Assembly: GCA_002102555.1 (NCBI GenBank) | Contig: MCFL01000026.1 | Coordinates: 1-64,000 of the forward strand | DNA length: 64,000 nt | Direction of reading: 5' to 3' | Source of the DNA: Catenaria anguillulae PL171 | Taxonomy: Eukaryota; Blastocladiomycota; Blastocladiomycetes; Blastocladiales; Catenariaceae | The notes under the pieces: model-generated | Told to the model about the DNA's origin: nothing | What the model saw: only the letters and a program-made list of their open reading frames with translations | The model's database searches: none | Part shown: positions 46,503 to 49,459 of the stretch, in pieces | How positions within the stretch are numbered: position 1 is the first letter of the stretch | How the letters are laid out: the number at the start of each line of letters is the position of its first letter | Made by a program: the position numbers and the translations under genes

Positions 46503-49459
46503 ATGCCGCTGATCTCCCCGACGGCAAATGCGCCGGGCAGCAGCAGCGCGCCAACGTCGCCCATGCCCAATGTGCTCAATCTCGGCCACCTGCTGACTTT
46601 GGACGACCTCAATGCCAAGTTTGAGGTTGGGGATGTGATTGGAACGTAAGTACATCGTGTCCTCACTGATTCTCACACGTCTGACTGACTTGCGGAATCT
46701 GTCTGCAGCGGCGCCTTTTCCGAAGTACGCAAGGCAACGGAACGCGCAACGGGCGTACAATTCGCAGTCAAGGTCATTGACAAGTCGAAATGTCGCGGCA
46801 AGGAGACCATGATTCAGTCCGAGGTGGAGATTCTCAAGCGTGTCAAACACAGGAATATCATTCGCTTGTTCGAGATGTATGAGTCGCCGCTCAAGATTTA
46901 TCTCATCATGGAGGTGTACGTGATCCCGACATTTGCGTTGCATCAGGACGGATCCAATGCCGGTGCTCACTCTTCGAATGTTATGTGCACAATGCAGCGT
47001 TACGGGAGGAGAGTTGTTTGATAGAATTGTCGCCAAGGGTTCTACACCGAGGCCGACGCTGCCAAGCTCGTGTGTGAAATTCTTCTCGGCGTCCAGTACT
47101 TACATCGCCTCAATATTTGCCATCGTGATTTAAAAGTACGGATGGTAACCTCTCTGAATGATTGCATCTGCGACGCTGACTTTCCATTCCTCGATAGCCT
47201 GAGAACCTCTTGTTCTACGACTCGTCGCCCAACTCACGCATCATGATTAGCGATTTTGGATTGTCCAAGATTTTCTCTGACGAACAAGTCATGAAGACGG
47301 CGTGTGGAACGCCCGGTTACGTTGGCACGTCTAACCATACCATTGGACTGACATGCATCCTTCCGTTGATCTCACCCATCATTACCCTGACATGCGATAT
47401 TGACAGCTCCCGAAGTCCTTCGCCGCGAAACATACAGCAAGCAAGTCGACATGTGGTCCATTGGCGTTATCACGTACATTTTACTCTGCGGATACCCGCC
47501 GTTTTACGAGGAAAACAACTATGCCCTGTTCCAGCAAATCATGTCGGGCCATTACGAGTTTGACTCGCCATACTGGGACAATATCAGCTTTGAGGCCAAA
47601 AACTTTGTTGCGCGGCTGCTCATTGTGGACCCAAAGCTGCGCATGACGGTAGAGGAAGCGTTACAGCATCAGTTTATCACAAAAAACTGTGCGGATGCGC
47701 TCGCACTGGCAAGGAGCTCGTCCAACGGACATTATGCATCGACGAGCTCGGTTGGGTCGGCGTCTGGATCGCATCGCGGGTCGGCAGAGTCTTTGCAGAA
47801 CCGCCGGAATGGTATGGAGCAAAACAATTTGTCGCCAACCATCAACATGAACTTGAGGAGCTACGCCCAACGCAGGAGCTCGGTGCGTTCTCATCTTCTG
47901 CATTGGTTCTGGGTAACAACCACGAGCCCGATTGACGCCCTTTGCCAATGTCTATCTCGACAGGATAAGCTCAATGCGACCAAGGCAGTCAATCACGAAA
48001 ACCCAACCGTCAATGCCGTCGCCACCTTACCACGGTCAAACCCAGCCCTCCGTTCGCCGTCGGAAATGTCTGTGGACGTGGCCGAGCCAGGCATGTCCCC
48101 ACTTCGCCCGAAAACCGAGCATCGTGAGGTGGATGATTCCGGTCTGGTATCATCCGTTGGCGACGTCAGCTGCCGTGGAACAGGCGGCCGTCCTGCAACC
48201 GCCGTCGCCAACCACGCAGCAGCTGCCGTCAATGTTCCCGTTTACCATCAAGTGCACACTCCCCAGTTGCCCGGTGGCTTTTCGTACTCGACGGCGCCAA
48301 CCAGTTGCGTCACATCAGTTTCTCCCGTCGGATATCCAGCAGGCAACTATGTACCGTCATACACGCAAACGCGAACGGTCCGATTCTTGTCGTACAGCAT
48401 CTTCATGCGCGTTCCCGGCGTCAAGAATCTCAACCATTCCGACCACAAGAATGCGCGTCTCAACCACTTTGTCGACCAAATCTTGCCCAACTATGATGTG
48501 ATTTGTCTGCAAGAAATGTACGCATACGGCTCATCACGCGTGTCTCGTCTGCTGCAGCTGGCAAAGGCACAAGGGTTTTACTGGGCGTACACGAGCCCGT
48601 CCAAGGGCTTGCTCAACGGATGCACCGACGGCGGGCTGGTCATTTTGTCCCGATTCGAGATTGAGCGCCATGCCCGATTAGCGTACAAGCGGTCCATGCA
48701 CAACTGCCGGTTCATTGCCAAGGGTGCGCTTTACGTCAAGGTCAAGTTGGCTCAAGACCGCGCCGTGCACTTGTTTACCACCAACTTGCAAAAGTCTACG
48801 ACGCACGAGCTGTCCATGCACTCGCCGGAGGTGCTCATTCGTCAAACGCAGCTGGCACAGCTGCGCTCATTTGTCGCTCAATGCACGGCCGACCGGTCGC
48901 CGACCGAGCCTATTCTCTTGCTTGGCGATTTCAATTTGAACGCGCGGTCGCGCATGGGAGCCTCCACTGACGAATACAAACACATGATGCGCTTGCTCGC
49001 GGGTGATTTCCAGCACGTTGCCAACCCGCGATCCTTGGAAGAGTTTTTGCCCGCGCAGATTGACCGCGAGCCATTACCCGTGCGCGACTTGCTGTTTGAT
49101 GCCTTTGGATACCATCCCGTGACGTATGGCGATGTCATTTGCGATGCTCACGGGCATCCGATTTCGCCCGCCGAGGCCATCCTGACGGACAAGGCAGACC
49201 AAGGAGCATGTCATTCAGTCGACTATGCGTTGTGGGTACCCGCCAAGGTGCAAGACGGTGCAGTGAGTGTTGCGGTGAATAAGGACGGGAGGAGCTTGTG
49301 CGTGGGGATTCAGCCATTTGCAGTTGCGGACCAAGAGTTTTCACATGTTTCTGGTACGTGTGCCCAATTCTCGGCTACTTTTCGCGTGGTCTGATCCTGA
49401 CTTTGACTTCGCCTGTAGACCATTATGGAGTCGAGGTCGTCCTGTCGGTCCAGCAATAG
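46503..49459 (+). CDS. CaM-kinase-like domain fused to neutral-sphingomyelinase-like EEP domain
   Basis: Exons 46503-46645, 46709-46915, 46998-47135, 47198-47324, 47407-47882, 47964-49353 and 49419-49459 give about 840 residues. Kinase (about 40-315): GTGAFSEV loop, [10 protein letters not shown] with the ATP Lys, [31 protein letters not shown], and [20 protein letters not shown]; CaMK1-like. A segment [18 protein letters not shown] follows, like a CaMK autoinhibitory tail. After a linker of about 130 residues, the EEP domain runs [26 protein letters not shown] (catalytic Glu), [20 protein letters not shown] (Asp, Asn) and, built across the last intron, VSDHYGVEV with the catalytic His. One base is missing near 47040 in KGFYTEAD. 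Intron 4 has a GC donor (GCACGT at 47325). Two tandem genes seem less likely because the linker is one open frame. Confidence 0.78.

Follow-up and report, generated by a model that had tools for sequence, protein, structure and literature searches.

In ordinary CaMK1, the regulatory segment directly follows the kinase and the protein ends there. Sphingomyelinases belong to a signalling family that is usually studied apart from the calcium kinases, and in human nSMase1 single changes in the active site are severe: N15A nearly eliminates or abolishes activity, D178A abolishes activity and D111A leaves 1% (PMC10682184). Here we describe a gene from Catenaria anguillulae PL171 that unites both families in one protein, found in a 64,000-nucleotide stretch of contig MCFL01000026.1 (the window). 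A preliminary description of this locus had proposed that a CaMK1-like kinase is fused to an nSMase-like EEP domain and that calcium signalling is thereby coupled to ceramide production. We found that the fusion stands: 28 kinase-bearing sequences fall in one EEP clade, and the deposited Catenaria protein, P0001, is the same kinase–EEP fusion. The coupling to ceramide production is weakened, as the EEP domain has lost N15 and D111 (human nSMase1 numbering), substitutions recur across the clade and intact paralogues are present in the genome. We favour, and consider fairly probable from sequence, the reading that a functional CaMK1-like kinase is linked to a domain of nSMase descent; in this fungus that domain is probably non-hydrolytic and would serve in lipid docking or regulation.

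In the window, we placed seven exons and six introns by their splice sites (Table 1). The introns are 62-82 bases long and five of the six have a GT donor; the intron at 47325-47406, which splits GYV|APE of the kinase, has a GC donor at 47325. A stop-free frame from 47391 to 49394 encodes 667 residues and runs from APE through the kinase C-lobe and the linker into the EEP domain, up to the 'VS' of VSDH, and the 81-base intron at 47883-47963 is likewise without a stop in this frame. Pfam matches Pkinase (E 5.5e-22) and Exo_endo_phos (E 7.9e-13) together on it. We compared all six frames with a codon-preference score trained on 18 long open reading frames elsewhere in the window. The fusion frame is top in the linker after the intron (0.142 versus at most 0.036 bits per codon) and narrowly top before it (0.087 versus 0.065 bits per codon), and it is not top within the intron itself. 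The linker thus lacks stops and keeps a coding bias, as had been described.

To find other members of this architecture, we searched with the EEP part of the window and obtained 13 proteins, 8 of which carry PF00069 (lengths set by the whole frame): those of Catenaria, Blastocladiella emersonii, B. britannica, Allomyces macrogynus, Coelomomyces and Quaeritorhiza and two further sequences. A search from Quaeritorhiza returned 31 proteins and added kinase-bearing fusions in further chytrids (Borealophlyctis, Rhizophlyctis, a Lobulomycetales metagenome-assembled genome, Blyttiomyces, Nowakowskiella, Cladochytrium, Dinochytrium, Chytriomyces, Podochytrium, Siphonaria and Entophlyctis) and in further sequences. 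The domain pair is therefore not unique to Catenaria, and occurs in the blastoclads and in many chytrids. The chytrid models P0018, P0032 and P0035 additionally carry PF03997 (which we take to be VPS28) or PF01015 (presumably ribosomal S3Ae), probably neighbouring genes merged by annotation. Among the best 120 of 210 matches of a profile search, we found mainly kinase-less proteins from other fungi, protists and further sources. The Piromyces models P0027 and P0028 have an Asn-rich N-terminus where the kinase is expected, and P0026, which has a very similar EEP domain and groups with them, has a kinase; the absence may be a real loss or a model error.

In a rapidly computed tree with 142 EEP domains, the 28 kinase-bearing sequences and 10 incomplete or kinase-less ones form one clade (Shimodaira–Hasegawa-like approximate likelihood ratio test, SH-aLRT, 99) with no other sequence inside. 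The clade persists when the eight active-site columns described below are removed (support 99) and under a more careful method (93/87; 33 sequences versus 6 plain ones). In a kinase tree of 25 sequences, the blastoclads and P0006 split from the rest (100/100). P0006 groups with the blastoclads in the 142-domain EEP tree (96) as well as in the kinase tree, and, with weak support, among the chytrids in the smaller careful EEP tree (80/68). These data fit a single old origin of the fusion and suggest a date before the blastoclad and chytrid sequences diverged. That the fusion predates the divergence of Blastocladiomycota and Chytridiomycota is something we infer, because the root of the EEP tree was set by plain sequences, several of which are long-branched.

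Could the fusion instead be two separate genes wrongly merged by annotation? We regard this as extremely improbable. The Catenaria fusion is predicted from genome sequence, and the linker is poorly conserved: among five blastoclad models, mean pairwise identity is 80% in the kinase, 53% in the EEP domain and 35% in the linker (the faulty stretch of P0001 included). Against a merger, however, the frame across the junction has no stop, distant species share the same domain order and conserved linker motifs, and some sequences have both domains in one open reading frame that nearly fills its contig. There are seven of the latter, in which the two-domain frame covers 84-97% of the longest contig listed; they may be intron-free transcript assemblies, because the frame leaves so little of the contig uncovered.

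Across the fused proteins, the kinase half appears intact. PF00069 scores 78.9 bits on the window frame (C-lobe), 230.6 bits on P0001 and 263.2 bits on the Blastocladiella protein P0002, with a cut-off of 31.7. We scored seven sites, namely the catalytic Lys, the helix-C Glu, the HRD Asp, the KPEN Asn, the DFG Asp, the APE Glu and the activation-loop Thr, and found zero substitutions in 27 kinase-bearing sequences, with 8 cells gapped (P0038 was not scored); P0001 retains 7/7. With P0002, rather than the window's protein, as the query, the nearest solved kinase is CaMK1D (E 1.8e-102), and the top 8 of 60 entries (the best 60 of 249) are CaMK1D, CaMK1, CaMK1G and one calcium/calmodulin-dependent protein kinase. 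As its catalytic sites, like its activation-loop Thr, are unchanged, the kinase half is probably active and CaMK1-like.

In the PL171 assembly, the kinase reading frame is broken in exon 3, where a 13-residue segment and the 11-residue segment after it lie in different frames and one base is missing at 47038-47040; relatives such as P0002 have a single Gly between the two segments. The seven-exon open model and the complete CaMK1-like kinase of the preliminary description thus hold in part: the exons were found, the frame from 47391 to 49394 is free of stops and the HRDLKPEN, DFG and APE residues are kept, but exon 3 is one base short and unaltered splicing of the exons gives a stop at codon 162. 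The deposited model P0001 skips the 13-residue segment and GYV and does not use the GC-AG intron. If the shortfall is real, the gene would be a recent pseudogene in PL171 with a truncated kinase, and protein searches of the 41-Mb assembly with the EEP domain and the C-lobe gave no further copy. We consider a pseudogene quite improbable: the shortfall is located in a G run, where assembly errors would be common, the exon-3 parts on either side of it match P0002 at 78% and 63%, and the blastoclad models P0002, P0004, P0005 and P0007 continue through the same place with matching residues present. An assembly error is favoured because the rest of the reading frame is undamaged.

The EEP domain is recognized by PF03372 on the window frame (49.1 bits versus a cut-off of 24.5, E 7.9e-13) and by TIGR03395 (E 1.2e-12, under its curated cut-off). 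Sphingomyelinases are its nearest relatives, its tree includes nSMase-like sequences, and the blastoclad relative P0003 has the sphingomyelinase fold. To compare active sites, we mapped N15, E49, D111, K116, H136, D178, N180 and D238, plus D271 and H272, by motif to human nSMase1; PMC10682184 is the source for the roles of N15, E49, D111, K116, H136, D178, D238 and H272, and the nSMase2 list of PMC9697135 lies behind the choice of N180 and D271. Catenaria retains E49, K116, D178, N180, D238, D271 and H272 (7/10 scored sites). Each functional group has nevertheless lost a member: the metal-ligand pair Asn15/Glu49 keeps Glu and has Ser for Asn, the DK switch Asp111/Lys116 keeps Lys and has Cys for Asp, and the His136/Asp178/His272 set keeps D178 and H272 and has Asn for His. 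The complete EEP domain of the preliminary description is accordingly present as regards the catalytic Glu, DFN and the SDH assembled across the last intron, but it carries N15S, D111C and H136N. Since the metal-site Asn and the DK-switch Asp are gone, and mostly the conserved His too, the EEP domain of Catenaria and other blastoclads probably does not hydrolyse sphingolipid phosphodiesters by the usual mechanism.

To quantify how often such changes occur, we counted substitutions at eight sites (N15, E49, D111, K116, H136, D178, N180 and D238), without scoring gaps as substitutions; D271 and H272 were excluded, since a good number of models stop short or are poorly built at these two sites. 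At least one substitution was found in 23/38 sequences of the fused clade, compared to 1/104 other relatives, which are those among the best 120 of 210 profile matches together with the matches of the two earlier searches. A hand count of kinase-bearing sequences alone gave 18/28. In our first grouping, 21 of 35 fused sequences were substituted versus 3/107 others; the kinase-less models P0044, P0045 and P0070 were then reassigned to the fused clade by the tree, and P0044 and P0070 are substituted. By parsimony, there are 8 state changes in the fused clade (summed branch length 20.0) and 1 outside (75.0), both minimum counts, and the chance of at least 8 of 9 changes falling in the fused clade given these branch lengths is ~3e-5. 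The changes at D178, the site most frequently affected, lie outside the blastoclads and are to S, T, C, G, V or N. In the blastoclads, N15S and D111C occur in 6/6 sequences and H136N in 5/6, Coelomomyces retaining the His.

At least two further nSMase-like genes are present in Catenaria. L010 lies on contig C403, with a copy of similar score on C209, and L012 lies on C90; both keep all nSMase motifs. No kinase was found among the long frames of these loci (~1.5 kb on each side, of which only three frames were scanned with Pfam). At L012 (734-1891), about 200 in-frame residues precede the nSMase-like gene, and the 386-residue frame containing them has no Pfam match. Many matches in the assembly are paired with an equal-scoring one on another contig (for example, C403/C209, C13/C45 and C188/C223), a pattern that two separately assembled haplotypes would give. 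PF03372 has 67 matches in the assembly, often in frames of 1000-2000 residues that we would expect to be retrotransposon endonucleases, and another match lies on the window's contig (C179:93717-94604, L006).

An alternative is a bifunctional protein, in which a calcium/calmodulin-controlled kinase is joined to an active sphingolipid phosphodiesterase, perhaps with an altered substrate in blastoclads. We think this unlikely in view of N15S, D111C and H136N together with the human nSMase1 mutants, the recurrence of eight-site substitutions in the fused clade and the intact-motif paralogues in the same genome. Several observations speak for it, and thus weigh against the loss of catalysis. The fold is that of sphingomyelinases, and weak or altered hydrolysis would be possible because seven of the ten sites are kept in Catenaria. 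Fused members P0006, P0014, P0017 and P0026 retain all ten sites, 15/38 clade members are unsubstituted at the eight sites and may be active, and P0019, counted as substituted, has only the mild change E49D. H136N alone may not be fatal, because nSMase2 His463Ala, near the DK switch and perhaps at the same position, still had measurable activity at three times the lysate protein (PMC9697135). The counts also have limits: the control profile was built from six intact sequences and its best 120 of 210 matches may under-sample degenerate unfused enzymes, and the change counts do not separate gain from loss. On the kinase side, a genuine one-base shortfall in exon 3 would disrupt the PL171 enzyme, and calmodulin binding by the segment past the kinase is putative.

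That segment is one of two conserved parts of the linker. NLxP, in the NLxP...NL segment past the kinase, is kept in 17-18/24 fused sequences, and DSGxVxS, ahead of the EEP domain, in 20-22/25. In P0002, a helix is predicted with low confidence at residues 329-369, at the NLxP...NL segment, and most other linker residues are predicted to be disordered. The relative placement of kinase and EEP domain is undefined because the full-length P0002 model has a predicted template modelling score (pTM) of 0.48. The NLxP...NL segment resembles fungal CaMK regulatory segments and is a candidate calmodulin site; DSGxVxS resembles the DSGxxS phosphodegron and is a candidate motif of that kind.

Taken together, these data suggest a kinase tethered to a lipid-docking or regulatory domain in a single polypeptide of ~840 residues: a CaMK1-type Ser/Thr kinase, a linker with two conserved motifs that is for the most part predicted to be disordered, and a C-terminal domain descended from nSMases. 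The fusion would have arisen once, as the single EEP clade and the corresponding division of the kinase tree indicate, and ahead of the Blastocladiomycota/Chytridiomycota split. The kinase would act as a CaMK1-like enzyme; usual sphingolipid hydrolysis would be gone in the blastoclads, where the metal-site Asn, the DK-switch Asp and, except in Coelomomyces, the conserved His are lost, and a non-hydrolytic EEP domain is likely in many chytrids too. The EEP fold may have been retained to bind membrane sphingolipid headgroups or the kinase itself and, once bound, could place or gate the kinase at membranes. More tentatively, the EEP domain may have become a non-hydrolytic sphingolipid sensor several times independently, so that the CaMK1 half would act only with Ca2+/calmodulin and a particular membrane lipid; we hold this possible rather than likely.

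Table 1. Features of the kinase–EEP gene in the window; substituted residues are in human nSMase1 numbering.
Feature	Positions	Strand	Basis or remark
Exon 1: N-terminus and first part of the N-lobe of the kinase (as far as GT of GTGAF)	46503..46645	+	aligns with Blastocladiella P0002
Exon 2: end of the glycine loop, Lys of AVK and Glu of helix C, as far as LIMEV	46709..46915	+	
Exon 3: 13-residue segment, then 11-residue segment...HRDLK in another frame	46998..47135	+	one base short at 47038-47040
Exon 4: PENL, DFG, activation-loop Thr, GTPGYV	47198..47324	+	GC-AG intron 47325-47406 comes next
Exon 5: APE and the C-lobe of the kinase (to ~47681), first linker part	47407..47882	+	Pkinase match
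Conserved 19-residue segment past kinase, candidate autoinhibitory/calmodulin-binding segment	47826..47882	+	conserved columns; putative role
Exon 6: remaining linker and EEP domain	47964..49353	+	Exo_endo_phos match
20-residue linker motif (DSGxVxS at 48135-48155)	48096..48155	+	conservation in fused sequences
nSMase-type EEP domain (PF03372)	48369..49353	+	profile matches; fold of blastoclad relative P0003
N15 to Ser (metal-site Asn)	48396..48398	+	
D111 to Cys (DK-switch Asp)	48705..48707	+	
H136 to Asn (His of catalytic group)	48783..48785	+	
D178 to N180 of GDFN, both retained	48927..48935	+	
Exon 7: last part of a 14-residue segment and stop; D271, H272 kept	49419..49459	+	

The gene directly upstream on the same strand (44067-45704) contains the end of an RSN1_7TM calcium-dependent channel domain (E 1.8e-26); its closeness to a CaMK-like gene may be chance.

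We regard the architecture as new; it combines two known families. In the databases, its members bear kinase, sphingomyelin-phosphodiesterase or hypothetical-protein names, and we found no paper describing a kinase–EEP fusion in open-access full text, going by titles and the opening lines of abstracts; an earlier report may exist in the subscription literature. In the available part of PMC12394161, neither 'sphingomyelin' nor 'fusion' occurs. The fusion is conserved in blastoclads, in chytrids and in a sequence that groups with those of gut fungi (Piromyces), and repeated active-site substitution in one half only makes it a natural experiment in the ways that a catalytic domain may turn into a regulatory one. 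It raises the question of whether a sphingolipid-enzyme fold senses lipid for a calcium kinase in fungi with swimming spores.

Compared to the CaMK1 (CaMKID) family, the fusion kinase is alike in HRDLKPEN, DFG, APE and the activation-loop Thr (MKTACGTP); in contrast, its possible regulatory segment begins ~48 residues past the kinase and is followed by further linker and the EEP domain. Unfused fungal nSMase-like proteins (Dipsacomyces P0011, Coemansia P0040, Rhizophagus P0043, Piromyces P0074 and Catenaria L010 and L012) have a homologous EEP domain and no kinase listed, and 103/104 unfused sequences are unsubstituted at the eight sites, gaps uncounted. Relative to nSMase1, Isc1p and bacterial sphingomyelinase C, which share the EEP superfamily, the blastoclad EEP domain is fused to a kinase and carries N15S, D111C and mostly H136N. 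In P0001, P0002 and P0004-P0008, no more than about 20 residues follow SDHY, which leaves these proteins no room for the C-terminal membrane helices of human nSMase1 and Isc1p (PMC10682184).
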